A stretch of 40,702 nucleotides of DNA from Actinomycetota bacterium. GTDB taxonomy: Bacteria; Actinomycetota; Acidimicrobiia; Spongiisociales; ZC4RG35. Of the stretch, positions 4,543 to 38,811 are shown in pieces; position 1 is the stretch's first letter, and the number at the start of each line of letters is the position of its first letter. The position numbers were made by a program, and so were the translations under genes. The stretch is from positions 1 through 40,702 of the forward strand of contig QQVI01000008.1 in NCBI GenBank assembly GCA_003388545.1, written 5' to 3'. The notes beneath the pieces are model-generated. The model was not told where the DNA came from and did no database searches. It saw only the letters and a list, made by a program, of their open reading frames with translations.

Positions 4543-4742
4543 CCGGCTTCTCGCTTCGGAACCGTCAGGTGGCCGAGGTACGCGGTAATGGGGCCACCGA
4601 TGGCGGAGTAGACCAGAATCTTTATGCACTCGTCCAAAACCCACTCCAGGTCGACGTTCCGCCAGCGGGTCATGACTCGAAGCGAAAGGATGATTCCCGA
4701 ACCAGCCCATGCGATGCCAACCAGGACTGCTAGGGAGATCAC
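4539..4742 (-). CDS. Small two-helix membrane protein
   Basis: 67 aa from GTG 4742, with a GTGA overlap to the nuclease gene upstream and ATGA to the gp3-like gene downstream. Two hydrophobic segments, about residues 1-20 (ISLAVLVGIAWAGSGIILSL) and 42-58 (ILVYSAIGGPITAYLG), are joined by a charged loop. It lies between two DNA-metabolism genes and is translated with them. Not a recognised family; a holin role is unlikely this far from the lysin. Confidence 0.65.
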   Translation of the reverse strand: MISLAVLVGIAWAGSGIILSLRVMTRWRNVDLEWVLDECIKILVYSAIGGPITAYLGHLTVPKREAG

Positions 4743-12936: not shown

Positions 12937-14759
12937 CATTCCTCCCGCAGGATCACGGTAGCGAACGCCTGCGACTCGGCACCCACCTCGGGTACCTCAA
13001 CCGCCAGCACACGCACAGTCTTAGACACGCCCGCCTCGTATTCCTCAACAGTGCCCCACGGATCCACGAACGTCGTCAAGGTGCGGGTCGCCGCCAACGT
13101 AGCGAGAGTATCGAGCGCTGCGGCAGTGGCCCGGTCGCCGTCACCGATCGAACCGGCATCGATTTCGAGCTGATATTCGGTGCGGGACTCCGCAGAAATG
13201 GCTTCCGCTGTCACCGACTTGACAGTCGGGGTGGCGGACGAGTCCGTCGAATTCAACAGCAAGCGGATCTCGAAGTCTTTACCCACCACAGATGACCCGG
13301 ACGTAGATACCGTGAACGTGTGGGACGTTTCGTTGTCGGTGTCCCACGTGTCAGATACGGTCACGAAAGCGGCACCCTCAATCGAGTAGGCCACCTCGAT
13401 CTGGGTGTTGGCGGGGAGCGGCTCGGCTGTGACCACAATCTTGGTCAACACCTTGTCGATTCCGGGATAGCCCATGTCGAATCGGCCGCTATCCAGCGTG
13501 CCCTCCGACGTGTCGTAGGCGTCAATGTCGGTGCGTTCCACCATGTCAGATGCACCGATACCGGCCACAAACACCTGGTTGCCGAACACCTTGGCACACT
13601 CGCCAGCCCCGGTGCTGACATGGTTGGCAGCGACACTGAGCCCACCGAACGACAGGTTGTACGTCCACAACCGGTCGTCGTAATGCAGAATCAGGTCGTC
13701 GCCCAAGGTACCGGCGATCTGAAGAGACTCGTTGGCGGTCGTGCCGGACGGTGCTCGGAACGGTCCGATGACGCCCCGCTGCCCGCCCCGCTGGAAATAC
13801 ACGTAGCCTTTGCCGGGTTCCGTGTGCGCCGACGCCACCCGGTAAGCGACGAAGATAAAGCCACCACCGACAGCGATCGAATACGGGAAAGCGAAGGCGT
13901 GCCACAGTTTCCCGATGATGGAATGCGTGGCGGTGAAAGCGTTGTATTCGTGAATGAACGTGTCGCCGTTCTCGGTGCGCTGCACCCACACGGGTCCCAC
14001 GTCCGATGACGTGAGCCGGTTCTGCGCCCACGGTATGGTCCACGCCGACGCTTCCGACGTGACGTCAGCGACCAGCGTCACCGTGTCGGTCGCAGTCTTG
14101 TCGACGGTGTAAAGGTCTTCGTCGTTGAGGGCGTACAGCACCCCGTTGTGGTCTGTCACATAGGTCGGAACCGCGGAGAACACTGTGCCGCCGGTTGTGA
14201 CATGCACCGCAAAGGCGGGGGTGTCGTAGTTGAATTCGGCGATCGAGCCACCCGACTTGCCGATGTAGAGCTTGCCGTTGTGGCCCTCGGCGATCGACGT
14301 GGGTTCACCGGTTACGGCATGGATCCAGCGGGTACCCCAGTCGAGCCCGGACGGGTCCCACTGATAGAGGCGGTTGTCGGTGACGTCGCCGAAGGCGCCC
14401 CATAGTTTCCCGTCCGCCAACCCCAACACAGTGATCTCGGCGTCGGCACCGGAATACTGGGTCGTTGACGACGGCGCCGTCAAGATAACGCCTTCGCCCT
14501 GATACTTGGGGCGGGCCCCATCGGAAATGTTGTAAGCGTCGGCACCGTCCCGCCACAGCTCCTCACCTTCACCGGCACGCCACGAATTGATGTGCCACAG
14601 GCGCCGCTCAGCGTCCGCTTGGATCTTGCCCTGGTCGCCGGGAATGTCCTGCCGATCGGGCAGGATGGCTCGTTCCCGACGCAGATACGGTCGGGGCCGC
14701 CACCGCGCCAGATTGACGTCGAGCCCTGCGATAGTGGCTGCACGTTCACGAACAGCCAT
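12936..14759 (-). CDS. Tail nozzle (tubular protein B-like)
   Basis: 607 aa from ATG 14759, in a TGATG overlap with the adaptor gene. The middle third is a series of short beta repeats (LYIGKSGGSIAEFNY, GVLYALNDEDLYTVDK, FIFVAYRVAS, DDLILHYDDRLWTYNL), the pattern of a beta-propeller as in T7 gp12-type nozzle proteins. A C-terminal beta domain with FEIRLLLNSTDSSATPTVKS follows. Size and place after the adaptor support the nozzle call. Long-tailed genes are absent, which also fits a short tail. Confidence 0.65.
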   Translation of the reverse strand: MAVRERAATIAGLDVNLARWRPRPYLRRERAILPDRQDIPGDQGKIQADAERRLWHINSWRAGEGEELWRDGADAYNISDGARPKYQGEGVILTAPSSTTQYSGADAEITVLGLADGKLWGAFGDVTDNRLYQWDPSGLDWGTRWIHAVTGEPTSIAEGHNGKLYIGKSGGSIAEFNYDTPAFAVHVTTGGTVFSAVPTYVTDHNGVLYALNDEDLYTVDKTATDTVTLVADVTSEASAWTIPWAQNRLTSSDVGPVWVQRTENGDTFIHEYNAFTATHSIIGKLWHAFAFPYSIAVGGGFIFVAYRVASAHTEPGKGYVYFQRGGQRGVIGPFRAPSGTTANESLQIAGTLGDDLILHYDDRLWTYNLSFGGLSVAANHVSTGAGECAKVFGNQVFVAGIGASDMVERTDIDAYDTSEGTLDSGRFDMGYPGIDKVLTKIVVTAEPLPANTQIEVAYSIEGAAFVTVSDTWDTDNETSHTFTVSTSGSSVVGKDFEIRLLLNSTDSSATPTVKSVTAEAISAESRTEYQLEIDAGSIGDGDRATAAALDTLATLAATRTLTTFVDPWGTVEEYEAGVSKTVRVLAVEVPEVGAESQAFATVILREE

Positions 14760-15661
14760 CAGATCCGCCTACGTCGCTGCCTCGGGACAAAGCGTTTCGG
14801 TTGCTGCACCTCGGACCGCAGCACCTTCTCATGCGATGTGCGGAGCCGCAGAAACTCTTGCATACCCAAGCGGTAGACGTCGGACGTGTCGGCCGACCGT
14901 GACGTGTCCTGCCGAGGTGGGTTGCGCCGCAGACCGAACGCACGCAGACGTGGCGCGGCCTTGCCGAGCACGCCCCACACAATGAGGGGCTCGAGGCGGG
15001 TGTCAAGGTTGGCGAGGTCGGCTGAGTTGGGGCGCCGCAGACCCGTGTAATACACGGTGTCAGACGGGTCGTACACAGCATCCTGCCGGAGATGCACGGA
15101 GTATTCGTTAGCGACTATGGCCGTCGGCATCTGCTGCTTCACCTGCCATGCCGTCTCCGGCAGGTCGTGATACCCGGCTTCGCCGTTCAAGTCGTATTGG
15201 AAGATGCGCCACACGTCGTAGATGTAGGCCGGCAAAGCATACGTCTCGGTGGCTTGTGAATAGGTGATGGTGCCGCTGTGCCACGACCACACATGGTCGG
15301 CGAGCTCCATGTCGACCACTTCGTTGATGAGGTCGTTGATGTCCAGCTCGGAGAAGTCCGGGTTCTTCCGCACCACAGCCCCATCCGACTGAGAAGCAGC
15401 GGTCGTCCCGTTGTAGGCGCGGCGGATCGTCAGCGTCGACCCAGACACGCCGTCAACGATGACCTGCTCCCCTGCTGTGTCGGCGGTGCTGGCAAACTCG
15501 AGGATGTCGCCCCGAGCCCACAGGTCAGGGTTGTCGACGTCAACCGACGTGGCGGACCCATTGATGGCACCGTCGATGGTGTCCTCTTTGGGTCGCTCCA
15601 CTTGCGGCATCCCGAACAGGGACCGCCGACATTGCTCTCTCAGCGCTGCGAGGGTAGCCAT
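14759..15661 (-). CDS. Head-tail adaptor (tubular protein A-like)
   Basis: 300 aa from ATG 15661, overlapping the previous gene by 22 bases. The helical stretch DFSELDINDLINEVVDMELA and the segment YALPAYIYDVWRIFQYDL resemble adaptor or tail tubular A proteins of short-tailed phages, which form the ring below the portal. An inserted beta part (about 30-95: SATSVDVDNPDLWARGDILE) is predicted. The C-terminus is very basic (FVPRQRRRRI). The call relies mainly on size, pattern and position between capsid and nozzle. Confidence 0.55.
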   Translation of the reverse strand: MATLAALREQCRRSLFGMPQVERPKEDTIDGAINGSATSVDVDNPDLWARGDILEFASTADTAGEQVIVDGVSGSTLTIRRAYNGTTAASQSDGAVVRKNPDFSELDINDLINEVVDMELADHVWSWHSGTITYSQATETYALPAYIYDVWRIFQYDLNGEAGYHDLPETAWQVKQQMPTAIVANEYSVHLRQDAVYDPSDTVYYTGLRRPNSADLANLDTRLEPLIVWGVLGKAAPRLRAFGLRRNPPRQDTSRSADTSDVYRLGMQEFLRLRTSHEKVLRSEVQQPKRFVPRQRRRRI

Positions 15662-16886: not shown

Positions 16887-17765
16887 TTATGCGCCGTCGG
16901 AAATGATGCGCACGCCCGCAGCGTCGTCGACTTCACCGACCGCATATGCGGCGGTGACGACGATCTCGTCGCCACGGAGCGAGGCGTCACGCTCGATCTC
17001 GACCCGAATCGGCCAGCGCTCCACGTAGCCAAGAGCCTGGTTCTTGGCGTACATGAAGTTCTCCTTGTCGGACGAGCCGTCTTCGCCCACCTGGGACGAA
17101 ATGAACGTCTCGTGTCCGAACAGGTTGCCGACCAAGCCGCTGTCGCCCGAACCGGGCAGGTCGTTCGACTCGGACCGCACCATGCCACCCGTGTTGCCAA
17201 GGGCGCTGAACGTGGTGCCGATGTCACCGATGAGCTCCTTGTAGTAGGAGTCCGGGTGCAGCACACGAGCGTACGGGCCACGAATGTTCGCAGCACGGAG
17301 CACAGCGGTCGTGTCGAGCAAAACCTGCTCCGTCAGGTCGACGTTGGTCGTACCTTCCGACGTGGAGAAGCCTGCACCGAGAGCGACGAGGTCGCCGGTG
17401 ATCTTCTCTGCCACGGCGAGTCCGGCGTTGCGGCCGTACTCCATCATGCCGACGATGCCGCCACTGTCTGCGAGGTCGGTCAGCGTGAGCTTGAGGCCGG
17501 CCTCACCAACGGTGAGGGTGTTCTGCGTCGGCGTGAACGCCGTGTTTGCCGTCAGGTCCGTACCGTCCGTCAATGCGGAAGCGGTCAGCTTCGGGTACTT
17601 CGTGAATCGAGCGGCATTCGACGGAATGCCTGCGAGGCTCTTGCCGATGACGTGCTGCTTCATGGAGAACACGTCGTAGGCGGCCTCAACGATGGCGTCA
17701 CGCATCAGCCAATAGTCGTACGACAGAAAGCCGTTAAGACTTGACTGTGTGATCTCATTCGCCAC
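16887..17765 (-). CDS. Major capsid protein
   Basis: 292 aa from GTG 17765, with GGAGG six bases upstream, the strongest site in the region. Features that fit an HK97-fold coat protein are a helical N-terminus (YDYWLMRDAIVEAAYDVF), the segment TLTVGEAGLKLTLTDLAD, a long spine-like helix (GRNAGLAVAEKITGDLVALG), the loop region RVLHPDSYYKELIGDIG and a C-terminal beta part (IRVEIERDASLRGDEIVVTA). The scaffold gene lies directly upstream. Placement and pattern make this a confident call, though the subfamily (P22- or N4-like) is uncertain. Confidence 0.85.
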   Translation of the reverse strand: MANEITQSSLNGFLSYDYWLMRDAIVEAAYDVFSMKQHVIGKSLAGIPSNAARFTKYPKLTASALTDGTDLTANTAFTPTQNTLTVGEAGLKLTLTDLADSGGIVGMMEYGRNAGLAVAEKITGDLVALGAGFSTSEGTTNVDLTEQVLLDTTAVLRAANIRGPYARVLHPDSYYKELIGDIGTTFSALGNTGGMVRSESNDLPGSGDSGLVGNLFGHETFISSQVGEDGSSDKENFMYAKNQALGYVERWPIRVEIERDASLRGDEIVVTAAYAVGEVDDAAGVRIISDGA

Positions 17766-18444: not shown

Positions 18445-20082
18445 TCACAGGTTTTGGAACCCTGCGATTTGCAGCTCCCCGGCTTCATTCAGGAACGACG
18501 TAGCACCGGAGAACCCGGAGGCTTGGGCTGCGAACGTGCGCTGGATCGATTGCAGCGACTGCTCGATCTCGGCCGCTGTCTTGCCTGTCTCCGGGTTGTT
18601 CTGCCCGAAGATGACAGACACAAGATCCTCTTGGGTGAGTCCGAACTGCTCCGTTTGGAGGGCCCCGAAGTTGCGGGCAATCAACAGGGCCGTCTCTTTC
18701 GCAGCATCAGAGAAGGCATCGCCAGATACGACCCCTTCGTCTGGCACGCCACCCAAGGCGGCCACGAACTCAGCGTCGATATCGACTCCGGCGTCCGTCA
18801 ACGATTGGAGCTGGAGCGCAGCGTTGATAGCCTGATAGATGTCTGACGGTGCAGTCCCGGTCAGAATGTCGATGAACCCGTCCTCGTCGACCGGTGCCAG
18901 GCCGAACGACTCCAAGATGGCGTTCGTTTGGTCGAGATGGTCGGGGTTGTCGAACAGATCCATCTCGGCGGTCAACACCGGGATGATCTGTTCCGGCGAC
19001 CAGCCGGTGCTGATGAGTTCCGTCAAATACTCATCCGACACGTCGGTCTGCGGGCCACGGATAGCCAACAGCGAGGCGCGCAACTGGCCCTCCCACTGCT
19101 GATACACCTCGGTGACCGCCAACGGGTCGTCGGTACCCAGGAACGTAGCGACCGCATCGAATGCGCCGTACCGCTCCTGGAAAGCCGCTGTGCCGGCGAG
19201 CTCGTTGGCGGTCCTGGCAGCCGACCATCCTTCTTGGATGGACAGCACCATGAGAGCGGAGGCGGTGTCGTCCTCAAGGATCCAGTCCGGTACACCTTCG
19301 AGGCCGAGGGCAGCCAGGTCACGTTCGAAAATGGATTGCAGCGATTCGTCTGCACCGATGATCTCGTCGAGCGGGCCGACCGTGATGATCGACGACTCGT
19401 CGAACTGGGCGCCGTCGAAGGTGACGAGGGAGTCGAAGTCTGCCACACCACCCGGAAACAGCGCTTCGAGCTCCCCCTCGTCACCGACCTCGTAGGCGAT
19501 CGAAACGCCAAACACGTTGTATTGCAGAAAGTAGAGGGCATCGGCGTCGGAGCCGAGCGGGTTCGTGACCTTGACCAGCGAGGCGCCCGACGGGATCACC
19601 GTCCCGGCACCTCCGACTGGCCCTGGGGTATCGGCGAGGTCGCCGCCGCCTACCTCAAACACCACCTTTGGCTGCTCGGAATCTGCGATCACGCTCGAGA
19701 ACGTGATCGTCCCGTCGAGTAGCCCCCCGATGGTGGCGTCATCAATGTTCTCTACCGCTTCACCTGTCTGCTGGGCGTACCAAGCCTTGATGGTGTCTTC
19801 ACCGACCCGGAACGACAGGATGTCGGAGCGGAGCTGGTCGAGGGTGCGGTTGCCGTCGACCCCGGCATTGTTGGCCTCATCAATCCAGCCCAGAATGTCG
19901 GCTTCGGAGAACGAAACCGACTGGAACGTGGTAGTGATGAAGACAAGCAGGTCGATGAGTTCCTGCGGGGCCCCGGCGTTGGTGAGGGCGTCAGCGAACC
20001 CGACGTCACCAACGATCAGACCGCCGAGTTGGTCTTCACCGGTCCCGGTGTCGGGTTGTTCCGAAATGGGTGGGGCGGTCAT
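18445..20082 (-). CDS. Putative internal virion (ejection) protein, 545 aa
   Basis: ATG 20082 overlaps the upstream stop (ATGA). Strongly acidic and helical throughout (ALTNAGAPQELIDLLVFITT, DILGWIDEANNAGVDGNRTL, AAKETALLIARNFGALQTEQ), with a short beta insert near 150-230. No enzyme motif is seen. It forms a set with the 2041-aa and 368-aa proteins. Long helical proteins of this sort in short-tailed phages are often internal virion proteins ejected with DNA. The call is from context. Confidence 0.5.
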   Translation of the reverse strand: MTAPPISEQPDTGTGEDQLGGLIVGDVGFADALTNAGAPQELIDLLVFITTTFQSVSFSEADILGWIDEANNAGVDGNRTLDQLRSDILSFRVGEDTIKAWYAQQTGEAVENIDDATIGGLLDGTITFSSVIADSEQPKVVFEVGGGDLADTPGPVGGAGTVIPSGASLVKVTNPLGSDADALYFLQYNVFGVSIAYEVGDEGELEALFPGGVADFDSLVTFDGAQFDESSIITVGPLDEIIGADESLQSIFERDLAALGLEGVPDWILEDDTASALMVLSIQEGWSAARTANELAGTAAFQERYGAFDAVATFLGTDDPLAVTEVYQQWEGQLRASLLAIRGPQTDVSDEYLTELISTGWSPEQIIPVLTAEMDLFDNPDHLDQTNAILESFGLAPVDEDGFIDILTGTAPSDIYQAINAALQLQSLTDAGVDIDAEFVAALGGVPDEGVVSGDAFSDAAKETALLIARNFGALQTEQFGLTQEDLVSVIFGQNNPETGKTAAEIEQSLQSIQRTFAAQASGFSGATSFLNEAGELQIAGFQNL

Positions 20083-21185
20083 CGTCCCAATGCTCCCAAC
20101 TGGTTGAGCTGATTGGCGAACTTCTGGCTGAACGTGCCCTGCGTACGCAGCCTGTTTTCACGGGTCCGTTCGGTGCGCTCAGCAAGGGCGGCCTGCGAGA
20201 TGTTGAAACGGGCACCCGTTTCAACGAGGCCACGGGTCGTGTCCGATGACAGGCCGAACCGGCCCACCGTGCCAATGAACTGGTTGAGATATTCGGGTGC
20301 CGACATGAAGTCGGGCTTGTTGCGGTACAGCTCCTTGTACCGGGACGTCGCTTCGAGCCGGCCCAGCAGGAACGTCTGAAAATCCTTCTGGCCGCCTTCC
20401 GTCATCCAAAACGAGTTCGCTTCGTTCATGTACTCATCGACGACGGCTTCAACCCCGGTCGGGTCTTCGAACAGAAGTTCCCTGTGGAGATCGGAGGCTT
20501 GACGCACGAGCTGATCCCTGTCGAAAACGAGCTGCGTGCGCCCGCCTCCGCCCCCACCGCGCCGACCACCTCCACCTGATCGCCGCACTGGGGAGAGGGA
20601 CGCAAGGATCTGCTGAATCTCGGGAGTCGACCACGCCGGCACGTTGATGAACTGCTCCGAGATGACACCCGAGTTGTTGAGAGCGCCGGACTCGAGGAGC
20701 TGATCGATCAACCCTGGGTCCTGGTTGAGGATGCCTTCGCTGAGCACCTGGGGTCCGGTCAGGGGGTCGTTGACCCAAACCCGGCCGTCGACACGAAACA
20801 TCGGGGGAAGCAATGGCGTGCCGGAGGCCAGGGTCTGGAGGTACCCGACGACATTGGTCCCTTGAACGAGCTCGGTGAACGTGGGCCACCGGCCGTTTTC
20901 GGACAGGAAGTTGGCGGCTGCGAGGTTGAGGCGGCCCTTGATGTCTGTGGTGGAGGTGAATCCGAAAGAGTTTTTGGCCCAGTCGACTGCGGCGTTGTAG
21001 TTGAAAGGGTCGGCCGAGGACCATGACCCTGACGGCACGAAGGGTGAGTCCGGCACGAACGGGTCTGGACCGTCCTCCTCGGGTGCCGTGATCTCGAACA
21101 GCGTGGTGGGGGCATCGTCGTTCTGGAAGCCGACGGCATCGATCAGCCCAGGGTCGAGCAGGATGGTGGGGGTGAGAAGGCCCAT
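20079..21185 (-). CDS. Putative internal virion protein, 368 aa
   Basis: The true start is ATG 21185, with GGGGAGG upstream and a TAATG overlap with the 54-aa gene, not the earlier in-frame codon. Acidic N-terminal half with FFEITAPEEDGPDPFVPDSP-like disordered stretches, then a Gly/Arg linker (about 200-215, RRSGGGGRRGGGGGGR) and a helical C-terminal half rich in Arg and Gln (ALAERTERTRENRLRTQGTF). No family recognised. Grouped with the giant and 545-aa proteins as possible ejection proteins. Confidence 0.5.
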   Translation of the reverse strand: MGLLTPTILLDPGLIDAVGFQNDDAPTTLFEITAPEEDGPDPFVPDSPFVPSGSWSSADPFNYNAAVDWAKNSFGFTSTTDIKGRLNLAAANFLSENGRWPTFTELVQGTNVVGYLQTLASGTPLLPPMFRVDGRVWVNDPLTGPQVLSEGILNQDPGLIDQLLESGALNNSGVISEQFINVPAWSTPEIQQILASLSPVRRSGGGGRRGGGGGGRTQLVFDRDQLVRQASDLHRELLFEDPTGVEAVVDEYMNEANSFWMTEGGQKDFQTFLLGRLEATSRYKELYRNKPDFMSAPEYLNQFIGTVGRFGLSSDTTRGLVETGARFNISQAALAERTERTRENRLRTQGTFSQKFANQLNQLGALGR

Positions 21186-21349
21186 TACGCAACCTCCCCG
21201 TACTCGCCGTCCCAGCCGATTTTCCCTCCGAGCCACGCCGCAAACGCCTGGGCCAACTCATGGGTTTGTACGTCAAGGACATCGCAGAAATGATCGAAGT
21301 CGGCCCAATCACCGGAGTGGCAGCCATCGCACTTGAACGGGTCTGGCAT
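21185..21349 (-). CDS. Tiny Cys/His protein between virion genes
   Basis: 54 aa. ATG 21349 shares TAATG with the end of the giant gene, and its own stop shares TAATG with the next start. The sequence opens MPDPFKCDGCHSGDWADFDH, with C-x2-C-H and a later HFCDVLD, so it might bind zinc. The rest is a short helix ending GWDGEYGEVA. Coupled on both sides, so it is likely translated. Role unknown. Confidence 0.6.
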   Translation of the reverse strand: MPDPFKCDGCHSGDWADFDHFCDVLDVQTHELAQAFAAWLGGKIGWDGEYGEVA

Positions 21350-24300
21350 TACGACACCTCACCCTCTACTTGAGCGTTCAGGTATCCGAAGTAGTCCGGT
21401 ACTTCGGATTCGACACCGGGGGTGCCTCGGGGGTTTGTGGCGGTGAACACAGAAGGATCATAGATCGGAACGCCGTCGACATACAGCCAAGCGAACACAC
21501 GTTCCCTGTCGACCACGATGCCGGCATCCTGTGTGCGGAACTCTTGTGTGGTGCCAAACAGCTCCGGCTGGAACTGCCCGATCGTGATCGTGCCCGCCTG
21601 GTCGAGGAGTCGCCGCAGCGTGATCGACGCCTCGCCGTATCCGGCCTGGCCCTGCTCGGGGGCGTTGAGGCCAAGTAGCCGGAAGTACAGCGGCGTACCG
21701 TCGGCAGCGTGGGCGACCAGCGTGTCACCGTCGATGACAGAGATTTCGTTGGCGTCTTCGGTGGTGACAGCGTTCGACAGTTCCGCCACTGGGGGCGGTT
21801 CGGGAGCCTCCCAGTTGAGGTCGCCGTAGTCCCGTGCAAAATGACGGTTGTAGTCGCCGACCGTGAAGTTCGGGTTGAGGAGCACCGATACACGGAACCG
21901 TTGCCGGAACCATTCCTTCACTTCGTCGGCGTTGAACTCTGCGCCGTTGTCGAGGGTGACGTTCTCCCACTCTGACGGGTTGTCCCAACCAAAGAGTTTC
22001 TTGGCGAGGCGGTTCTGCTCTTGGATGTCTTCCACGAGCCCAGGGCCGTAGAAGTTGACGTCGGACTGGGGTGTCCACTCAATACCGGTCCAGCCGTGCG
22101 CTTCGGCGGCGTCGGCAATGGCTTGGCTCGAGGCCGGCGCAGACAGGTTGCTCAGCTTGGCGGCGACCGCAGTCGGTAGCGACACGTCCAGGTCGAACCG
22201 GTCCTGCTGGGCGCCGAGATGCTCCCTCAGCTCGCCGAGCGTGGTAGTGACGGATCCGTCCTCGTTGCGCCACACGTCAGGGAAATTGACACCGATGCGT
22301 GCCAGTCTGTCGAAGTGTTCCCAGTCGGCCGGGATGGTCACGACGGACCCAGCTTCGGTTTGATTGAGGCGCCCCTTCGACCAAGGGATCGGGACGGCTT
22401 CCTCCCAGACGCCTCGGATGTAATCGGCGGCGAATCGTGCTGCGCGGGCGTGACGGTCAAAGAAGACGTCACTGTTGTCACGCAGCACGACCCAGCCGCC
22501 GTCCCGCCCCGCCGCGAAGACTTCGTCCCGAGCTGGGCCGAATGGCGCAACGACCCTTGTGCCGGAAACGGCGTGTGCCCACTCGTCGGGCACTAGCTCG
22601 GGCACGACCTCCCACGAGGACGCCAGGTTGGCGAGCAACTCGGGGTGATCGATGAACAGCTTGGCTTTCTCCAAGTCGGGGATGCCTGGCAGGTTGATGA
22701 TGTCGGAGGCGACGTCGGCGAAGGCGTTGAGTTTCGACGGGTCGACCCGCTCGTCGTCATCTAGTGCGGGGGCGACCTCCAGGGCTGTGAGGCGGAAGTC
22801 GTCGGCCAGTCCTGGGGTTACCCAGCCGGCTTCTTCCCAAGCGTCGATGACGTCTCGCACCCCCGCATAGAGCGTTGCGTACTGTGCGTCAGATCCGTAC
22901 TGTGTCGGGCCGCCGATGTTGCGCTGCAACTGGTTGAGGATGTTGCGCTGATACCCGGAGCGCATCGCCTCCTCCATCATCACTTCGAGTGCCGCCACCG
23001 GGATCGACTCGCCCTGAATCGACGGGTTGAAAGCGAAAGCGTTCGGGACGCCGAGGCTCGATGTCTCGGCGAACCATTCGGCTTCGAGGAGCGCCAAGTT
23101 GTCTCGCAGGAACGGCGGCTCCGATTCGGCCACGATGGCGTTGAAGATGCGTGACACCTCGGTTGGCTCGAACTGCCCAGAGATGGCGGCGACATAAGCG
23201 GCCATCGCGGCAGCGTTGGAGCGGATGGACCGCCCGGACGTTGGGAGCAACGCATCGACGAGATGTGAGAAGCCCGACATGACGTCGTCGTTCGTGTAGT
23301 CCGCAAACACATCACCAGCGGGGTTGATGACTTCTACGGCCCGCCGACGTGGATCGTCCTCTGGGAGCCAGTTGATGAGCCACGTCGGCAGCGGCCCAAG
23401 TGATGGTACGTTGTTAATGACCATCTGCTCGTCGAGCGATGTTGGGAAGAATGTAAACGTGTTGGCGAGCCAGGTGGGTGTTCTCGGCTGATCGCCGAAT
23501 GTCTCCGGGTCGTCGTCGAGTGTCGTGACCTTCGACATGCGGGACAGGATCCGCAGATTCAACGGCACGCCCGGCACGTCCTTGACGGTGCGGCCGAACC
23601 GAATCTGCGTCGGGGCCGACAGCTGCCGGAACCAGTAGTCGACGAAGTCGATCGTCGCTCGCCCGAACGGCCACAATCGGGTCGAGCGACGACCGAACAC
23701 CGATGAGGCAGCGACAGAGAACATCAGGTCGTCGGCTCTCTGGGCGGCCCACCGGGTTGCGGCGTCCTCCAGATCCGAGCGGAGCACGAGGTTTTGAGCG
23801 CTCAGAACCGATTGCACGTCGGGTGATGTGCGCCCTGCGGCAATCATGGCACGGGCAGCTTCGGGCGACTCGGCAAACCCTCCTCGCAGAAGCGCCGCCT
23901 CGTCTAGGAGATCGGCACGGTTGGCGTGCATCGCCATGTACGACTCGCGGTAGTGGTCGAAGAACACGGCACCGCGGCGCGCACCGGGGCCACCGAACAT
24001 GACGTTAAACAGTTTGCCAAACACGGAGTCGCGGGACTGCACCTGCGCTGGGACACGGCCGATTGCGTTGATGAGTCCGTGGTTCGTGATCTGCTCGTTG
24101 TTGGCGGCTGCCTTCAGGATGGCTTCGACGAGCTCGTCGCCGTTCCGCACCGCATCGGCCCGCAACACCCCAAGCGAGTTCTGAATCGTGTCCCACACAA
24201 ACCGGGCATCGACTTCGTCGCCGTTGGGTCGGATCCGTCGCAGTGTTTGACGACCCGACTCCTCGAACCATTGGGCGAACGCCGCCACAGCGGACGCCTC

Positions 24301-27300
24301 GTCTGCTTCGGTCGCCAGGGCACGGGCGTACGCCTGCAACGTGGGTGACTGCACGAGGGTACCGTTGACCCATCGCTCGGCGGCCTCGAAGAACTCTCGA
24401 GACAGGGCGCCCCGAGTACCTCTCGGATTTGTAACCACATCCCACGCAGAATCACGCAACGCAACGAGGTTGCCCATCTCGCGGCCGTACTGGGTGCCGG
24501 CCGATGAGCCGCCCCGCCGGCCGATGAACGACCCCGTGGCCGCAAGGGAGCGGCCGATCTGGCCGGTGCTGGAGTAGAACCGCAGCACTTCGTCGAGGTG
24601 TGCCTTGAATGGAGTGACGGCGTTGAGCAGTACCGAGGCGGAGAACACGTACTGCATGTTGTTGAGCGTCTTCTGCACCGCCTGGTTTTTGAGAACGCTT
24701 CTCACTGCGCTGAACTTGTCGCCACCGAGGGCGCCGTACGCCACAAGTTCCATCGGTGACACGGGGAGCACGGCCTCCCGAGCTGCCGCACCGAGACCGG
24801 CACGGGCAGCGTCAGTGGCGTCTTCACCGAACGGCGCCAAGTTGAGGAACGGCCGCTCCTGGCCGACGCCTGTCCGTGCGAAGTCGCTGACGAGATCCCA
24901 GGCCCGCCGACCGTTCTCGAGGACGGGGATACCGAGGTCGTCGGCCCAGTCGTCCATGAATGAATCGACCCAGTTGCGCAGTAGGTTCCGATCTCCCGCT
25001 GATTGTGCAAAATCGAGTTCGTGTTTGAGGGAGAGGGCTTCCCTTCGGAGGGCCGCTTCGTCGAGGGCGAGCCGCTCGAACGTCGTCTCCCCTTCTGCCA
25101 GCAGGTCATCGATGCTCTGCTTCGCCTTCGTCAGTTGGTCGACCACAGCCTGGTCGAAGTCTGCGGTGCCGGCCAACGCCTGCTGGCGAAAGATGGCTTG
25201 GCGGAGGGCTGCCTGCTCTTTGCGCAGCATCGGGACCTGTGTGGCGTCGGCGGCCTGTCGGACAGCGCGGGTCGCCCGACTCACCGACTCGGAACGGGCC
25301 GTGACGGCGGCGACGAGATCCGCCGAGTCGCCCCGGAAGGCTTTCCACACGTTGACGAGCTCGTCCATAACTCCACGGAACTTGTCCGCCTGGGTGGGGA
25401 ACCGGGTCGTAACGAGTCGAATAGCATCGTCGAGGAAGAAGGCGTCGTCGGTACGGATAGCCCGATGCGTGCTCGACTTGGTAAGCATGGTCGCCACCTT
25501 CTCGACGGCGGCGTTGTCTGCGATGTCCATGTTTGCCAGGAACTTCGAGAGGCCCTGTACGCCTTGCCGGAGCGGAATGGCGGCCGGGCCGGTTGGTACC
25601 CAGAACCCACCGTTGGCGGGGGTGTTGGCAACGAGCGTGTCGAGGACCTCTTTCGTGGCGGCTTTGCGTGCCGCCAGGTCCGTGAACTCATCGCCGCCGA
25701 TCTGCCACAGCCGCACAAGGGCATCGGGCGACAGCCCCGTGCCGAACAGTTCAACCATTTGCGGGTTGGAACCGTCTACGAGGTTGCGGGCCAGGGACCG
25801 GAGCTCGTTGCGCCCATACACCCATTGCTGTGCCAGCGCCGGGTCATTCATGGCACGGGTCAAGGCTCGCCACCCGGCTTTGCCGCCAGGGGTTGCCCAC
25901 GTCAACGGGTCGAAGATGATGGACCCGCCAATGTCGACCCATTGAGCTGCGGCCGACTCCGGATCCATGTCGTAGAACTGTGAGACGGTCTTGTTGTCGA
26001 GGGCTTCGCCAACGGCGTTCGTGACGATCGTCACCGGGTTGATGGGTCCGTCGCCGGTTACGGCTTCGGCAATCCCCGCGGTGGCGTCAAGGAAGAATAC
26101 GCCGATGCCATGGGCGACACGATCCCACGCCTCAAAGATCGCCATGGCGCGGGGGAGAGCTATGTCTTCGACAAGGGTGCCGAGCACAGTGCGGTCATCT
26201 TCGAGTTCACGGAACTTCCGCAACGCCTCCTCAGAATCCAACTCCCCCAACAGAGATTCTTTGAGCGTGACCTTGTCAGCTTCGGGCAGGGCTGCCCAGG
26301 CGTCCATCGCCATGACCAGGGCATTTCCCTGAGAAGACCCCTCGCCGATGAACTGGGTGGCGACCGCGGCGATGATGGCCTCATCGGAGGCGGCCGCTTT
26401 GTGCGCCCCCGCAAGCGAATCAAGGTACTGCTGTTCCCGGCCAGCAGCCTGAGCGTCGAGTATCTGCTCTGTGTTGGTGATGCCGAACGCCTGCCGCATG
26501 ATCTCGTTCGTGACCACCTCATACGCCGGTCGGGCCCCGTGATCCTCGGTCCAGCGCAGCAGGTCGCCGGCCTGCTCGGTGATGGCGCCCCACACGGTCT
26601 GCGGGCCGGGCAGCTCGTCGGAGTCCTCGTCGATGGTGTGTGCCAGACCGGAGCGGGCCATGATGTACGCCCGCACCACGTCGGCGTGATCGGCGATCGT
26701 GGTGTTCGGGTCGAGGCGGATGAGGGCGCGGAACGTGGGACCGTCGGTGGCTTCGGAGACCGCCAAGGCCAAATCTGCACCTTGGGTGGCCCACACGACT
26801 CCGCGTCCCTCAATCTCTTCCAGGGCACGCACCTGTTCGATCGGGAGGGCCTCGATGCCTTCCACTGTTGACCCGTTGACTTCGATGCCGAAGTTCCCGA
26901 CCGCTGCTGGGGTGACGTTCAGTGACGTCGCTTCCCAGGCCCCACGTAGCACCTCGGCGTCGTTGAGGAGCTGCCCGGCTGTCAAGACCTGGCCGTACTG
27001 GCGGGCATACGTTTCGTGCATCGCCCGGTATAGGGCCTCCTGCGGCGGTGTCTCGTCACCGGCCGCAGTTACCATGGTTTGCTCGAGGTACTGCTCGTTC
27101 GCGAGCCCCAGGGCCCGTTGCGGATCTATCGACAGCATCGTGAGGAGCTCGGGGCTGCCGTCGTAATACGCCTCAGCGAACCGGTTGACGAACTTGGCGG
27201 TGCGGTCCTCGTCGCCGATCAGCGACGGATCCATCAAGTACAAGCTCGCCTGGATCATCTGGAAATCGGAGGTAGTGAGCGGTGTCGACGGCGCCGGGCC

Positions 27301-27474
27301 GAGCGGTGTCGGCCGCACCGGGGGTGCATACGGTGCGATCGTCGTCTGGAAAGGTGATGGTTCCGGTTCGGTGATGACGTCCGAGATGGGCGACGTCGAC
27401 GGGACTCCAGTGACTTCTTCTTCGAGGTCGAGTTCGCCGGGCACACCCGTTACGGCGAACTCTCTATCGGTCAC
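21349..27474 (-). CDS. Giant internal virion protein with C-terminal SNase-like domain
   Basis: 2041 aa from GTG 27474 (GGAG five bases upstream, GTGA overlap). It is mostly helical without membrane spans, with coiled segments around 700-860 (LRKEQAALRQAIFRQQALAG, EAALRREALSLKHELDFAQS). The last 130 residues match staphylococcal nuclease: VIDGDTL (D1915, D1917), FRLLGLNAPE (R1932, E1940) and DRERVFAWLYVDG (R1992). These align with the D19/D21, R35, E43 and R87 residues of the enzyme, so both arginines and the glutamate are kept; D40 is Asn. Size and place in a short-tailed phage suggest an ejected virion protein. A nuclease tail might degrade host DNA or act at the entry site. Confidence 0.75.
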   Translation of the reverse strand: MTDREFAVTGVPGELDLEEEVTGVPSTSPISDVITEPEPSPFQTTIAPYAPPVRPTPLGPAPSTPLTTSDFQMIQASLYLMDPSLIGDEDRTAKFVNRFAEAYYDGSPELLTMLSIDPQRALGLANEQYLEQTMVTAAGDETPPQEALYRAMHETYARQYGQVLTAGQLLNDAEVLRGAWEATSLNVTPAAVGNFGIEVNGSTVEGIEALPIEQVRALEEIEGRGVVWATQGADLALAVSEATDGPTFRALIRLDPNTTIADHADVVRAYIMARSGLAHTIDEDSDELPGPQTVWGAITEQAGDLLRWTEDHGARPAYEVVTNEIMRQAFGITNTEQILDAQAAGREQQYLDSLAGAHKAAASDEAIIAAVATQFIGEGSSQGNALVMAMDAWAALPEADKVTLKESLLGELDSEEALRKFRELEDDRTVLGTLVEDIALPRAMAIFEAWDRVAHGIGVFFLDATAGIAEAVTGDGPINPVTIVTNAVGEALDNKTVSQFYDMDPESAAAQWVDIGGSIIFDPLTWATPGGKAGWRALTRAMNDPALAQQWVYGRNELRSLARNLVDGSNPQMVELFGTGLSPDALVRLWQIGGDEFTDLAARKAATKEVLDTLVANTPANGGFWVPTGPAAIPLRQGVQGLSKFLANMDIADNAAVEKVATMLTKSSTHRAIRTDDAFFLDDAIRLVTTRFPTQADKFRGVMDELVNVWKAFRGDSADLVAAVTARSESVSRATRAVRQAADATQVPMLRKEQAALRQAIFRQQALAGTADFDQAVVDQLTKAKQSIDDLLAEGETTFERLALDEAALRREALSLKHELDFAQSAGDRNLLRNWVDSFMDDWADDLGIPVLENGRRAWDLVSDFARTGVGQERPFLNLAPFGEDATDAARAGLGAAAREAVLPVSPMELVAYGALGGDKFSAVRSVLKNQAVQKTLNNMQYVFSASVLLNAVTPFKAHLDEVLRFYSSTGQIGRSLAATGSFIGRRGGSSAGTQYGREMGNLVALRDSAWDVVTNPRGTRGALSREFFEAAERWVNGTLVQSPTLQAYARALATEADEASAVAAFAQWFEESGRQTLRRIRPNGDEVDARFVWDTIQNSLGVLRADAVRNGDELVEAILKAAANNEQITNHGLINAIGRVPAQVQSRDSVFGKLFNVMFGGPGARRGAVFFDHYRESYMAMHANRADLLDEAALLRGGFAESPEAARAMIAAGRTSPDVQSVLSAQNLVLRSDLEDAATRWAAQRADDLMFSVAASSVFGRRSTRLWPFGRATIDFVDYWFRQLSAPTQIRFGRTVKDVPGVPLNLRILSRMSKVTTLDDDPETFGDQPRTPTWLANTFTFFPTSLDEQMVINNVPSLGPLPTWLINWLPEDDPRRRAVEVINPAGDVFADYTNDDVMSGFSHLVDALLPTSGRSIRSNAAAMAAYVAAISGQFEPTEVSRIFNAIVAESEPPFLRDNLALLEAEWFAETSSLGVPNAFAFNPSIQGESIPVAALEVMMEEAMRSGYQRNILNQLQRNIGGPTQYGSDAQYATLYAGVRDVIDAWEEAGWVTPGLADDFRLTALEVAPALDDDERVDPSKLNAFADVASDIINLPGIPDLEKAKLFIDHPELLANLASSWEVVPELVPDEWAHAVSGTRVVAPFGPARDEVFAAGRDGGWVVLRDNSDVFFDRHARAARFAADYIRGVWEEAVPIPWSKGRLNQTEAGSVVTIPADWEHFDRLARIGVNFPDVWRNEDGSVTTTLGELREHLGAQQDRFDLDVSLPTAVAAKLSNLSAPASSQAIADAAEAHGWTGIEWTPQSDVNFYGPGLVEDIQEQNRLAKKLFGWDNPSEWENVTLDNGAEFNADEVKEWFRQRFRVSVLLNPNFTVGDYNRHFARDYGDLNWEAPEPPPVAELSNAVTTEDANEISVIDGDTLVAHAADGTPLYFRLLGLNAPEQGQAGYGEASITLRRLLDQAGTITIGQFQPELFGTTQEFRTQDAGIVVDRERVFAWLYVDGVPIYDPSVFTATNPRGTPGVESEVPDYFGYLNAQVEGEVS

Positions 27475-27797
27475 AGGTACTCCGAGAGGACTCTCCCGAT
27501 CTCAGCGAGAAGCGGGTTGTTGGACCCGAGCGCCTTCTGTCGGAACGACTGGATCGGCGACTGGACGGGGGTCAGCCCGCCGTTGGCCGTGATTCCGGGG
27601 GGGCCGGGCGGTTTGCGGTTCGCGAGGGCGTCAAAAGAAGGCCGGCGACGAGAAACAGGTCGACGTGCTTCCGGCAGTACGCCAGGTGCTTCACTTGGGC
27701 TTGTGGAAGTCGGCAATCCGGCGCGACGCATGGCTTGGACTGTTCGCTGTCGTTCACCGTGGGGTAGCCCCTTTGGGACGAGGTCCTCGGCGGCCAT
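27471..27797 (-). CDS. Hypothetical protein with alternating coding signal
   Basis: 108 aa if read straight through from ATG 27797 (AGGGA seven bases upstream) to a GTGA overlap with the giant gene. The C-terminal part (LTPVQSPIQSFRQKALGSNN, then PLLAEIGRVLSEYL) and the first dozen codons have the high-GC third positions of neighbouring genes. The middle, about 27755 to 27640, does not; there the overlapping frame 27572-27757 looks coding. So this may be a gene broken by two small indels, or two overlapping genes. Position suggests a minor head protein. Confidence 0.45.
   Translation of the reverse strand: MAAEDLVPKGLPHGERQRTVQAMRRAGLPTSTSPSEAPGVLPEARRPVSRRRPSFDALANRKPPGPPGITANGGLTPVQSPIQSFRQKALGSNNPLLAEIGRVLSEYL
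27572..27757 (-). CDS. Possible zinc-knuckle ORF overlapping 27471-27797
   Basis: 61 aa from GTG 27757, with AAGGGG about nine bases upstream. Residues 10-31 (CVAPDCRLPQ, then YCRKH) form C-x4-C-x12-C-x2-H, a motif I recall from many small phage proteins and HNH enzymes. Third codon positions are GC-rich in the first 40 codons, unlike the longer frame over the same bases. It may be a real overlapping gene or the true middle of one frameshifted gene. Confidence 0.45.
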   Translation of the reverse strand: MNDSEQSKPCVAPDCRLPQAQVKHLAYCRKHVDLFLVAGLLLTPSRTANRPAPPESRPTAG

Positions 27798-27800: not shown

Positions 27801-28172
27801 CTAGTCCCTGTTCAGGAAGCGGGTGATGAGCCCTGGATTTTCGTTTGAGGTGGCACTCGTGGTGTTCTCTGGCTCGTCGCCGAGCGGTGGTCGCTTCTTC
27901 TCGGCGTTGTCGGCTTCGCGGGCTGCGGTGGCGTCGTCCGGGTCGACCACGCCGCCGTCGACGAGCAGGCCCTGCTCGAAGGCGCCGTCGAGGCCGATCC
28001 ACAGTTGGAAATGCCGCTCAAGCACGGTGGCATCGCCGGCCTCGTCGAACCGGATCGTGTAAGCGAACCCGTGCGGTGTCCAGCCCTGGTTGGCCCAGCG
28101 GGTCGTGGTGAGTGTGACGAACGGTTCGTCGAGTTCGGGTCCCATCGGGGGGCGAACAACTGGCTTGCCCAT
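27801..28172 (-). CDS. Hypothetical protein after portal, 123 aa
   Basis: ATG 28172 has GGAGAAA six bases upstream. The first two thirds are beta-rich (EPFVTLTTTRWANQGWTPHG, TVLERHFQLWIGLDGAFEQG); the C-terminal third is acidic and disordered (DDATAAREADNAEKKRPP). No family recognised. It lies just after the portal gene and likely encodes a small virion or assembly protein. Confidence 0.65.
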   Translation of the reverse strand: MGKPVVRPPMGPELDEPFVTLTTTRWANQGWTPHGFAYTIRFDEAGDATVLERHFQLWIGLDGAFEQGLLVDGGVVDPDDATAAREADNAEKKRPPLGDEPENTTSATSNENPGLITRFLNRD

Positions 28173-28184: not shown

Positions 28185-30053
28185 CTATGTTGCGGTGCCG
28201 CCTGGGGCGACCTCTGCGTTGAGTCGACTGATGTTGGCCGGAAGAGCGTTCTGGAGTCCGGGGGAGACACCGGGGATACCGCCCGACTGGAGCGATTGTA
28301 TCGCACCGAGGGCGTCAAATGGGGCACCTCCCGCTTCGGCCTGCTGCGCCGCCTGCCGTTCCGCCACGACCTGGGCGTCACGGAGCGCCTTCAACACGGC
28401 ACCACGGGTGGTGGTGTCGTCCGAATCGATGGCGTCGAGGAACTCGAGCACGGCCGGGTCCTGCTGGGTGAGCTGCAACGGCAGGACCTGCTGGATGTAG
28501 ATGTCGGTGAGCTGTTCGATGAGGATGTCCCGCTCGGTGGCGAGGGCGTCACGGCCACGCCGCTCAATGAACTGACGCCGAGACATGGTGCCCTGGCCGA
28601 GCTCGGTGGCGTCCTGCACCAACTGGTTCTGGCGGTCCAGCCCGGCGTTCTCACCGTACGACACGATGAGGCGGTAGTCACCGTTGATGTCGGTGCCTGG
28701 GTTGTAGTTCTCGGACCACTGCTTGTCACCCTCAACCCCGTCGATGCGTTTCTGTCCCACCTCTGGGGTACAGTGGATTTCGTCGAGCGCCGCGGTGCGG
28801 GCCGTGATCTCTTGGAGTCCGAAAGCAATGTCGCCCTGGGCGGTGGCGAGCTCCACGTTGAAGGTGCCAGCCAGCGCCACAACACCTTTCGCTGACACAA
28901 TGGATGCGTCCGGGTTGCCGGACCGTTGTGGCGGCCACGCTGCCTGTCGGCGGGCCGTGTCCTGCATGGCGGCGACGGTTTGCTGGGCCTCGAAGTTGAC
29001 CGGCGGCCGGTCCCGCTCAATGCGTGCGGTGCCTTCCCCGGTGCCTTCCAGTACAGCGCCCGGACCGTACTTGTGAGGGTCTTTGATGTTCTCGAGTACT
29101 GTGGGGGCGTAGATCGACATGTCGATGTCGTCGAGGAGGCGCGCCATGATGTTCTGCGCAACCCTCAACGTCGGGATGACGTCCTCGAGGGCACCCCGGT
29201 ACTCGCCGTCATGGGTGGCGCGCTTCGTTTCCACCACCGGACACACTCCGAGCTGGTGCTTCACGGGATCGGCGAGCCAGCCGATCACTTGACCCTCACC
29301 CCCTACTTGAGGTTGAATCTGCATGAAACGGTTGCGTTGATCGAATGTGATGTGGTCAACGCTGGTGCCGATGGCTACGGCCCAGTGGGTCTTGTCGAAG
29401 AACCACAGCTCCTCAACAAGCTCCCGGTCCGCCTCCTTACCCTTGAGTGGAAGTTGAGACTCGATCGCCTTGATGTTGGGGTGGTTGAGGCCGTACTCCT
29501 TCTTCATGGCACCGAGCGGCCGCTTCCGAGCCACGAGGATCTCCGTCAAAGAGCCGAGCGAGTCATGTGACAGCGGGTAGGCGAACATGGGGTGCATCCG
29601 CATGAAGAACGGGAACCGCTCGCCGGGCGAGGTGAGGCGAGGTTCGGTGGCGTGGATCCAGTTGGCCCACGGCACCGTGTAAGCGGCCCCTGCGTTGAAC
29701 CAGTCGAAGTACAGGGTTTGGATCGTCTTCTCGAGGCGGCTGCGGGTCCAGTACGACTCGAAGATGCGGCGCCGCTTCTCGGCGGAGCGTTCCCCACGGT
29801 CCTGCCGTGTGCCCCTCGCGGGGAACGTCCGCATCTGTGGCAGCGCCGACGCTGCGGAATAGACCTTGTCTTGCAACGAACCTGAGTAGATGTTCTCGAC
29901 GAGCGGGTCGGAGTGTTCGACAGTGTCGTCGTCCCAAAGCACCTGCCAGTTCCCCGCCCCGGTGGCGTTGTTTATGGCAATCTGCTTCTTCCACGCCTGA
30001 TGCTGACGTGCGCCGTGCTGTCTGGCTTCGGAAATGTCTGCGGTTGTGGGCAC
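28185..30053 (-). CDS. Portal protein
   Basis: 622 aa from GTG 30053, starting directly after the terminase stop with GGAG eight bases upstream. The layout fits large portals: an N-terminal helical region (RIFESYWTRSRLEKTIQTLY), beta-rich wing (FFMRMHPMFAYPLSHDSLGS), a stem/clip stretch with VIPTLRVAQNIMARLLDDID, and a helical Ala/Gln-rich C-terminus (KALRDAQVVAERQAAQQAEA). It should form the dodecameric ring at the head vertex through which the terminase packs DNA. Order terminase-portal is standard. Confidence 0.85.
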   Translation of the reverse strand: MPTTADISEARQHGARQHQAWKKQIAINNATGAGNWQVLWDDDTVEHSDPLVENIYSGSLQDKVYSAASALPQMRTFPARGTRQDRGERSAEKRRRIFESYWTRSRLEKTIQTLYFDWFNAGAAYTVPWANWIHATEPRLTSPGERFPFFMRMHPMFAYPLSHDSLGSLTEILVARKRPLGAMKKEYGLNHPNIKAIESQLPLKGKEADRELVEELWFFDKTHWAVAIGTSVDHITFDQRNRFMQIQPQVGGEGQVIGWLADPVKHQLGVCPVVETKRATHDGEYRGALEDVIPTLRVAQNIMARLLDDIDMSIYAPTVLENIKDPHKYGPGAVLEGTGEGTARIERDRPPVNFEAQQTVAAMQDTARRQAAWPPQRSGNPDASIVSAKGVVALAGTFNVELATAQGDIAFGLQEITARTAALDEIHCTPEVGQKRIDGVEGDKQWSENYNPGTDINGDYRLIVSYGENAGLDRQNQLVQDATELGQGTMSRRQFIERRGRDALATERDILIEQLTDIYIQQVLPLQLTQQDPAVLEFLDAIDSDDTTTRGAVLKALRDAQVVAERQAAQQAEAGGAPFDALGAIQSLQSGGIPGVSPGLQNALPANISRLNAEVAPGGTAT

Positions 30054-32195
30054 TTACTGTTCTCCACTCGCCAACAACAGGGCGACGTCGGTCATCTTCG
30101 GCTGCTCGTGGCGCAAAGGATACTGGTCTTCGCCGGTTCTTTCTGCTATTTGTCGCCGCCGCATCCGTTCCCACTTCTTGCGAACGCTCTGAGGCACCGG
30201 ACTGCGAACGTCGACCTTGGCGCCCGACGCACCTTCGAGGAAGTCGTACGCTTTGATGGAGCATACCCATGTCGCCAGCGCCGGGTCATCGGGCTGATGG
30301 CCTTTCTGGCCGGGACGGGAGCGGCCCTCAGCGTGGGAGCGGGCGTCGAAGTTCTTGAAGAACTCGAACAGACGTTCGGACTTCTTGCGGTCCTCGGCGG
30401 TCATGGCCGGAAGTCGCAACACACCGGAGCGCATCAGGAACGACATGGCCGACACCGACAAGTGGCCGCGGGACCGGTTACCGGCGTGCGTCTGATGCCG
30501 GTACAGCGACGTGGCGAAATCGGTGAACGCCTCTTTGATGATGGAGTCGTCGAGCACAGCCGATTCCTTGTTGACCTCATAGGCGTACCACAGCGGCCGG
30601 AACCGCTCCAGCGGCCACAAGATCAGCTTCGACTTGATGCCCTGAATGCCGAGTCGTTCCCCGAAGAACCAGTCGATAACCGTCATCGTTCCCATCGAAC
30701 GGTCAACGGCCATAGCTGTCCACGCTGCGCCGCCAACACGAGCCGGATCGGCGCCGACAAAGGTGACTTCCGAGGGGTTCCACACACCATAGGTGCGGGT
30801 CTCGTCGAGCGCTTTCTCGAGCACGGCGTCATTGAAGTCTCCCGTCATGTCTTCGGGTGGGTTCTGTTCGTAGGACGAGGCCCAAATGTCAGTGCCCTTG
30901 AGGTCCTCTTTGATGTCGAGGAGCCCGTCGACACGTTCCGCACCCTGCTCGGCGAGCTCGTCCTGTTCGGCAATGGTGAGGTTGCCGATCTCGATGCGTT
31001 TCCCGATCTTCTCGCCCTTCTCGGGGGGCATTTGGAAGTAGGACCGCAACGGGAACTCCTCGGGCCAGTACGACTCCATCTCCCCGTCTTCGTTGTAGAC
31101 GATCGGCGGGATGATGACTGTGGCGGTGCCGTTGGCGTACTTCGTGTACCAGCCTTCTTGCTTCACCACGGGGGCCTCGCCGATGTACTGCTGCATGAGC
31201 CGCTCGTAGTTGTCGCCCTTCTTGATGCGGGTACCGAGGAACACCATGCGGCCACGGGTATCGAGCCGGGACCGGGCGGTACCGAGAATGAACTGGAACT
31301 GGTCTTCCATCACGGTCGGTGACGTCTGATTCTCCCGCGTGAAGGCATCGGAGATCACCATCAGATCGACACGGGCACCGTACAGCGCACCACCGAGGCC
31401 AGTGGCCCACAGGTTCGGTTCGGCCTCGTCGGTGGTGCCCCGAATGAAGTACTTCTCGTTCTTCGTCCAGGTGGTTTTGCGCACCGAGTTGCCGTCAGTG
31501 TCGACCATGCCCCTTGCCCATTTGAACGGTCCGAAGTCCTCAATCAACGAACCTGTTGGGACTTGCGACGTGGAACCCAGTGGTGCGGTGCGGTACGTCT
31601 TCGGGTCCGTCAGGTACGGGTCGAGACGCTCTTCGATACGGCGGCCGGCGAAGCGTTCCGATTCCATGATCCAGGCGACACGGAGCCCCTGGTCGTAACA
31701 GGTTTCTCGAGCGACGATGTCGAGCGCCGAGGTGTCTTTCCCCATGCCGGGGGGGCCGAGCATGAAGATCCGCTTGTTGGTCTTGTCCTCGAAAGCGTCG
31801 ACGAGTGCCTGGTGGTGGCGGGGGGTGCCACGTCCGGTGTAGTGGCGGCGCCACTCGGCGAACGGCAGGCGCTCCACTTCTTCGTGGTCGAGCTTGACGA
31901 CGTCGGTGTCACGGGCACGGGCCAGCGCTTTGCGCCGGTTCTGGAGGAACTGCTTGGCCTTCTTGTACTGCTTGGCGAAATCCGGGTCTTCCCGGTTCCA
32001 CTTCTGCACGGTGACTTCGGCTACGCCGGCCGCTTTGGCTGCCTCGGCAACAGAGGTGATCTTGGGATCGTCTTGGATAGCGTTGAGGACCCGCATTTGG
32101 TTGGCGATGCGGCGCCGGACCCGCCCATCGAGGAGGTCGCCGTCGGGTTTGCGTTCCCGTTCCCAAAAGTCCTTGTCGGGTGCGTTGCCGCCCAT
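30054..32195 (-). CDS. Terminase large subunit with N-terminal HTH
   Basis: 713 aa. ATG 32195 (AGGGA upstream, TAATG overlap) is the start; longer upstream frame is non-coding. Residues about 44-85 (ITSVAEAAKAAGVAEVTVQK, then WNREDPDFAKQYKKAKQF) are a helix-turn-helix of the type found in small terminase subunits. The ATPase follows: Walker A G147-PPGMGKDT and Walker B D277-LMVISD283. The nuclease part has VGADPARVGG (first Asp), a Glu in YEVNKESAV and DDPALATW near the end. No separate small subunit was found nearby. The enzyme cuts and pumps DNA into the head. Confidence 0.85.
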   Translation of the reverse strand: MGGNAPDKDFWERERKPDGDLLDGRVRRRIANQMRVLNAIQDDPKITSVAEAAKAAGVAEVTVQKWNREDPDFAKQYKKAKQFLQNRRKALARARDTDVVKLDHEEVERLPFAEWRRHYTGRGTPRHHQALVDAFEDKTNKRIFMLGPPGMGKDTSALDIVARETCYDQGLRVAWIMESERFAGRRIEERLDPYLTDPKTYRTAPLGSTSQVPTGSLIEDFGPFKWARGMVDTDGNSVRKTTWTKNEKYFIRGTTDEAEPNLWATGLGGALYGARVDLMVISDAFTRENQTSPTVMEDQFQFILGTARSRLDTRGRMVFLGTRIKKGDNYERLMQQYIGEAPVVKQEGWYTKYANGTATVIIPPIVYNEDGEMESYWPEEFPLRSYFQMPPEKGEKIGKRIEIGNLTIAEQDELAEQGAERVDGLLDIKEDLKGTDIWASSYEQNPPEDMTGDFNDAVLEKALDETRTYGVWNPSEVTFVGADPARVGGAAWTAMAVDRSMGTMTVIDWFFGERLGIQGIKSKLILWPLERFRPLWYAYEVNKESAVLDDSIIKEAFTDFATSLYRHQTHAGNRSRGHLSVSAMSFLMRSGVLRLPAMTAEDRKKSERLFEFFKNFDARSHAEGRSRPGQKGHQPDDPALATWVCSIKAYDFLEGASGAKVDVRSPVPQSVRKKWERMRRRQIAERTGEDQYPLRHEQPKMTDVALLLASGEQ

Positions 32196-38533: not shown

Positions 38534-38811
38534 GTCGCTGGCAGCTTCTCGAGCGGGATTTTGGCTTTGGCGCCGTGGATGACGCGGGTCCACTGGACGG
38601 CTTCTTCGCTTCGGGTGAGGGGTGATTCGACGAGGAGGTTGAGGTCGCAGGTCATGGCGAACGATTCTTCTTCGATGCGGCCTTTGAAGTCGGGGGCGTC
38701 ATCGACCATGGAGGAGATGCGGAGACAGAAGACGCGGGCCGATTTGGTGAGGCGATGCCATGACAGCGTGTTGCCGCACAGGGCGCATTCCGGGTTGGGG
38801 AGCCTACTCAT
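38530..38811 (-). CDS. Hypothetical protein, 93 aa
   Basis: ATG 38811 with GGAGGG seven bases upstream and ATGA overlap. N-terminus CALCGNTLSWHRLTKSARVF has a CxxC and a further Cys. The rest (FKGRIEEESFAMTCDLNLLV, RVIHGAKAKIPLEKL) is mixed alpha/beta. Second gene of the late operon, just upstream of the methylase. Unknown function. Confidence 0.65.
   Translation of the reverse strand: MSRLPNPECALCGNTLSWHRLTKSARVFCLRISSMVDDAPDFKGRIEEESFAMTCDLNLLVESPLTRSEEAVQWTRVIHGAKAKIPLEKLPAT

Follow-up and report, generated by a model that had tools for sequence, protein, structure and literature searches.

The window, that is, the whole stretch of DNA that was analysed, is an entire contig of 40,702 bp, one of 358 in its assembly, and it is phage DNA, with terminase, portal and capsid genes that all lie on the minus strand. 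Between the portal gene and that of the major capsid protein (MCP) lies a gene for a giant protein of 2041 residues, in the following arrangement:

30054..32396, minus strand: terminase large subunit (TerL; PHROG 38)
28185..30053, minus strand: portal protein, 26% identical to Beephvirinae portals (E about 1e-19)
27801..28172, minus strand: ORF of 123 aa between portal and giant, without family match
27471..27797, minus strand: conserved small gene, 108 aa, directly upstream of the giant and overlapping its start
21349..27474, minus strand: giant protein gene, 2041 aa, GTG start, hosting a domain like staphylococcal nuclease (SNase)
20079..21236, minus strand: conserved gene downstream of the giant, 385 aa, with one cysteine (none in the counterparts of relatives)
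18445..20082, minus strand: conserved gene downstream of the giant, 545 aa, no cysteine
16887..17765, minus strand: MCP (PHROG 267)
14759..15661, minus strand: tail/connector-type protein, shared with Beephvirinae

The GTG start of the giant ORF overlaps the stop of the preceding gene (GTGA), and GC3 is 0.74-0.81 up to codon 2000 and 0.60 across the final 41 codons. The order TerL, portal, small gene(s), giant, a gene of ~360 aa, a gene of ~550 aa and MCP is found group-wide, and the source of the giant is an environmental phage of a podovirus-like group. Its relatives in culture, as judged by TerL and portal, are the Beephvirinae, podoviruses of Streptomyces; one phage of cluster BF has been described as a podovirus (PMC13097060), and FlowerPower has been placed in that cluster (PMC9753666). 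Elsewhere on the contig, a 475-aa protein encoded at 3415-4842 (minus strand) matches PF18897 (Gp3-like recombination directionality factor-like, E 5e-27), possibly a hint of lysogeny or of a temperate past, and neither an integrase nor an immunity gene was identified on the contig. A C5-cytosine methyltransferase gene at 37859-38593 (minus strand; PF00145, E 2e-47) covers only profile positions 2-163 of 324; since the second half was not found in the ORF, the enzyme may be truncated or split.

The body of the giant has no family match in Pfam and PHROG profile searches, so that an N4-type giant RNA polymerase or a hidden hydrolase was dropped as a candidate, as was a tape-measure protein, given that the gene precedes that of the MCP and is syntenic with podovirus genes. 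The recognisable features are all at the C-terminal end:

21793..21813, minus strand: proline-rich hinge (P.PP invariant) preceding the SNase-like domain
21463..21762, minus strand: SNase-like (OB-fold) domain, residues ~1905-2004, by sequence, profile and predicted fold
21721..21732, minus strand: DGDT motif, D1915-G-D1917-T1918, equivalent to SNase D19-T22, invariant in five phages
21679..21681, minus strand: R1932, equivalent to SNase R35, invariant in five phages
21655..21666, minus strand: N1937-A-P-E1940, equivalent to SNase D40-E43, with Asn at D40 and the catalytic Glu retained
21499..21501, minus strand: R1992, equivalent to SNase R87, invariant in five phages
21370..21462, minus strand: family-specific C-terminal segment, residues 2005-2035, in place of the SNase C-terminal helices

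This end of the protein is almost certainly a divergent SNase homologue, as the initial annotation had proposed from the motifs, whose placement (D1915/D1917, R1932, N1937, E1940 and R1992) proved right; phmmer, profiles, hhalign and Foldseek all agree. A phmmer search with the last 183 aa of the giant alone matched thermonuclease 5c4z at E 5.6e-4, three family members matched the PHROG 452 endonuclease at 9e-4 to 4e-6, and a five-member profile matched PDB thermonucleases at E 2.6e-5. When the family profile was compared by hhalign with eight bacterial thermonucleases (prob 98.8%, E 7e-17), the alignment ran from strand 1 up to and including R87/DG, where it stopped. A three-member profile detected ~90 chromosomal thermonuclease-type proteins, with matches in 93 of the 138 genomes of the order, the best (3e-10) in genomes other than that of the phage contig. 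Chance similarity was discarded in view of these E-values and of the five conserved members. PF00565 gave no match above the cut-off in any of three members in single-sequence Pfam searches, so that automatic Pfam annotation would overlook the domain; the chromosomal SNase copy of the same assembly matches PF00565 with 58.7 bits. On contig C14 of this assembly (14878-15222), a chromosomal-type frame of 376 aa, of the thermonuclease family, has VNANE instead of VNAPE.

Structure prediction, one of the checks proposed in the initial annotation, rendered an SNase-type OB fold: the AlphaFold2 model, built from four sequences (pLDDT 73, pTM 0.72), has the strand and helix order of the SNase barrel, and every one of the 50 best Foldseek matches in the PDB was a staphylococcal nuclease, with prob 1.00, E between 4e-5 and 2e-4 and low TM values of 0.38-0.48; among viral structures only a weak match to a phage thermonuclease was obtained. 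The domain had been ascribed to the last 130 residues, which holds up to R87; past this residue the usual SNase C-terminal helices are unrecognisable, and the model contains one short helix, with low pLDDT at residues 2010-2025. The segment instead follows a consensus of its own, [YWF][DN]...F[TS]..N.RG...V.D...L, with one exception at R. Thus, the domain has in common with the SNase/thermonuclease family (PF00565, COG1525) the OB-fold core, DGDT, R35, E43 and R87, whereas it differs in the Asn at D40, in Ala/Thr at T41 (a second change beside the one at D40, which had been taken as the only one), in the C-terminal helices, in its fusion to a phage protein of ~1900 aa and in escaping PF00565.

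A search for homologous giants had been suggested by way of PF00565. Syntenic giants with a C-terminal SNase domain were found on four IMG/VR contigs from uncultured phages (1930-2204 aa):

3300037515_000541: giant of 1930 aa
3300043331_000585: giant of 2003 aa
3300005253_001075: giant of 2158 aa
3300025889_014445: giant of 2204 aa

The domain is present in all five giants with a readable C-terminus and is their best-conserved part: in 100-residue blocks, mean pairwise identity is 18-38% in the body, 42.5% at 1901-2000 and 47.3% at 2001-2041. On this comparison of sequences, the fusion is a real feature that has been retained in five divergent phages. The giants of two relatives carry two cysteines each, 15 residues apart and at equivalent places (1639/1654 in L006, 1567/1582 in L007), a pair absent from the 2041-aa giant. 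Between portal and giant, two relatives, L088 (4039-6214) and L067 (5195-6088), contain paralogues of ~230-300 aa ending in DIDYYEA[YW][IL]PR, possibly decoration or adhesion proteins, three of them in tandem in L088; none was seen in the 40,702-bp contig.

The replacement of both D40 and T41, together with the loss of the C-terminal half of the SNase fold, could indicate an OB fold that binds only nucleic acid or protein, and the inactive SNase repeats contained in Tudor-SN offer a parallel. We consider this improbable, since DGDT, R35, N40, E43 and R87 are invariant in the five phages, with no loss of the Arg and Glu residues in any homologue, while the giants are only ~18-38% identical elsewhere; an invariant catalytic set speaks against pure binding. 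Moreover, among 35 SNase motifs from bacterial genome loci (a set that includes the motif of this phage, overlapping loci having been merged only if identical), 22 have Asn at the D40 position and 13 have Asp. Asn is therefore ordinary there in bacterial thermonuclease-family proteins and no sign of inactivation, and the argument from D40 was abandoned. That the domain is the most conserved part and that DGDT and the R, E and R residues are invariant is as expected under selected catalysis, and the domain is probably active.

The giant had been called a virion protein outright. An assignment by position, it is supported indirectly by the portal-to-MCP slot, the lack of cysteines and the synteny with cultured podoviruses, which make it probable that the giant is a virion component. 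In this slot, phage 80alpha encodes gp44, an ejection or minor head protein (PMC7290940), and other phages encode MuF proteins (PMC5576092); enzyme domains on head proteins are an established delivery theme (PMC5512222, whose main text contains neither of the terms SNase and staphylococcal nuclease). The giant has no cysteine in 2041 residues, as against 10.6 expected from neighbouring genes (P 2e-5), and other counterparts read, cultured ones included, also have none, apart from the two relatives mentioned above. The MCP and some tail proteins are cysteine-poor as well, so that this property supports a place in the virion more than ejection; nor could homology between the body and any known ejection protein be detected.

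As a cultured counterpart, gp9 of Beephvirinae (Immanuel3, WRightOn and FlowerPower) shares with the giant the slot after the portal, giant size (1635-1648 aa), the absence of cysteine and related TerL and portal proteins, but it lacks an SNase domain and its body shows no detectable homology (hhalign against PHROG 10618, prob 0.7%, E 0.08; no HMM match), so that the two are equivalent by position only. The whole giant had no match in cultured phages, in which the SNase matches inspected were free-standing small ORFs, and scans of the genome collection were empty. Three more giants by position, of 1711, 2016 and 2163 aa, were found in bacterial assemblies, all without SNase, and homology between the body of the giant and the G197 and G264 giants is undetectable. 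In the 2163-aa giant of G264, a GDS-type string near the end was dropped as a candidate SNase, there being neither an R..NAPE context nor a profile match. On contig C36 of this assembly the portal-giant module occurs twice, at L051 203-6253 and L050 11032-17082, with equal lengths and ends though the letters differ; its recurrence 43,828 bp on suggests a phage genome of ~43.8 kb assembled past one turn.

A portal-adjacent nuclease could act on the DNA of the phage itself: while the genome is being packaged, the head completed or the cell entered, it might trim, handle or protect the DNA end that lies near the portal. There are parallels in 80alpha gp44, which occupies the same slot and binds DNA ends (PMC7290940), and in T4 gp4, a virion-associated, nonspecific head-completion nuclease needed for packaging, cited as such in PMC7824862. 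This reading appears very improbable to us: the proteins that hold the same position in Beephvirinae, G197 and G264 do without the domain, which implies that SNase is not a general packaging need.

The initial annotation did not recall this fusion as a described system. An SNase was in fact found in 2007 on the baseplate-hub protein of BtI1, a prophage akin to Bacillus phage 0305phi8-36, where it takes the place of the wall-degrading domains (transglycosylase/M23) of the relative, for reasons that were not obvious to the authors (PMC2147016). It is likewise fused to a virion structural protein, but at the N-terminus, in a wall-enzyme position and on a myovirus-type tail hub, in contrast to the C-terminal SNase of a portal-adjacent giant. 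PHROG 8809 (2317 positions; L054-L064) also contains an SNase within a giant phage protein, at about 1095-1235 of the profile; there the domain is internal and precedes an M23-like region (~1283-1391 matches bacterial proteins, one of which is an M23-type peptidase as judged by visual inspection), and only the SNase stretch matches the 2041-aa giant. With its adjacent SNase and M23-like regions, PHROG 8809, of unknown function in the database, deserves an annotation of its own. MuF polymorphic toxins (PMC5576092, whose main text does not contain the term SNase) similarly have a portal-adjacent gene, a C-terminal enzymatic domain and a proposed delivery with DNA; the giant gene lies just downstream of the portal gene, with two small ORFs in between, but has a far larger body and no MuF domain, and membership was rejected as there was no Pfam MuF match. 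Hence the idea of the fusion is less new than had been supposed, while a literature search, not exhaustive, found no paper describing a portal-adjacent giant with SNase.

Both the BtI1 hub and PHROG 8809 couple SNase with attack on the cell wall, and in Beephvirinae annotated peptidase and glycosylase genes directly follow the giant, before the MCP. The enzyme could accordingly work at the entry site, either extracellularly or within the wall, where it would remove DNA around the cell or on its surface, beside cell-wall hydrolases, as the particle penetrates, and extracellular Ca2+ would suit an SNase, although D40N may alter metal use. We regard this as unlikely, for the giant gene is in the head/portal block, away from tail genes, and at the thresholds applied neither the giant nor the two proteins encoded downstream of it showed a hydrolase domain. 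The SNase of Staphylococcus aureus requires Ca2+, and Ca2+ is scarce in the cytoplasm, which counts against a nuclease delivered there. Mg2+-dependent SNases exist, however (PMC3585158), so that metal dependence cannot separate action inside from action outside; the nuclease of phage GBSV1, whose kinship to SNase is not assumed, is active without added metal (PMC2390534).

The reading that we favour, still tentatively, is that of a nuclease domain on a portal-proximal, ejection-type protein, delivered at infection and cutting host nucleic acid. A sugar-nonspecific nuclease of the SNase type would be held as a fixed C-terminal domain behind the proline-rich hinge of the giant. From its position, lack of cysteines and cultured podovirus counterparts, the giant would be packaged alongside the genome and would leave the particle at infection, ahead of the DNA or with it. 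The nuclease would then arrive on the envelope's host side or in the cytoplasm, and would cut host nucleic acid, its presumed substrate, as infection starts. Host nucleic acid may be the main target, a point on which we are equally guarded. Against this reading count the segment past R87, without recognisable SNase C-terminal helices, and the control that a nonspecific nuclease beside packaged DNA needs, none having been identified. It is conceivable, if rather doubtful, that every particle thus carries a pre-made, sugar-nonspecific nuclease across the envelope, where it degrades the nucleic acid of the host, or of rivals, ahead of any phage gene expression; that some further control would then spare the incoming genome is just as speculative.

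Together with the BtI1 hub and PHROG 8809, these giants suggest SNase as a cargo that recurs in virions. The conserved enzyme end gives a handle on portal-adjacent giants, both for activity assays and as a marker of where the C-terminus is located during infection, and it poses the concrete question of how a nonspecific nuclease can travel next to the DNA of the very phage that carries it.
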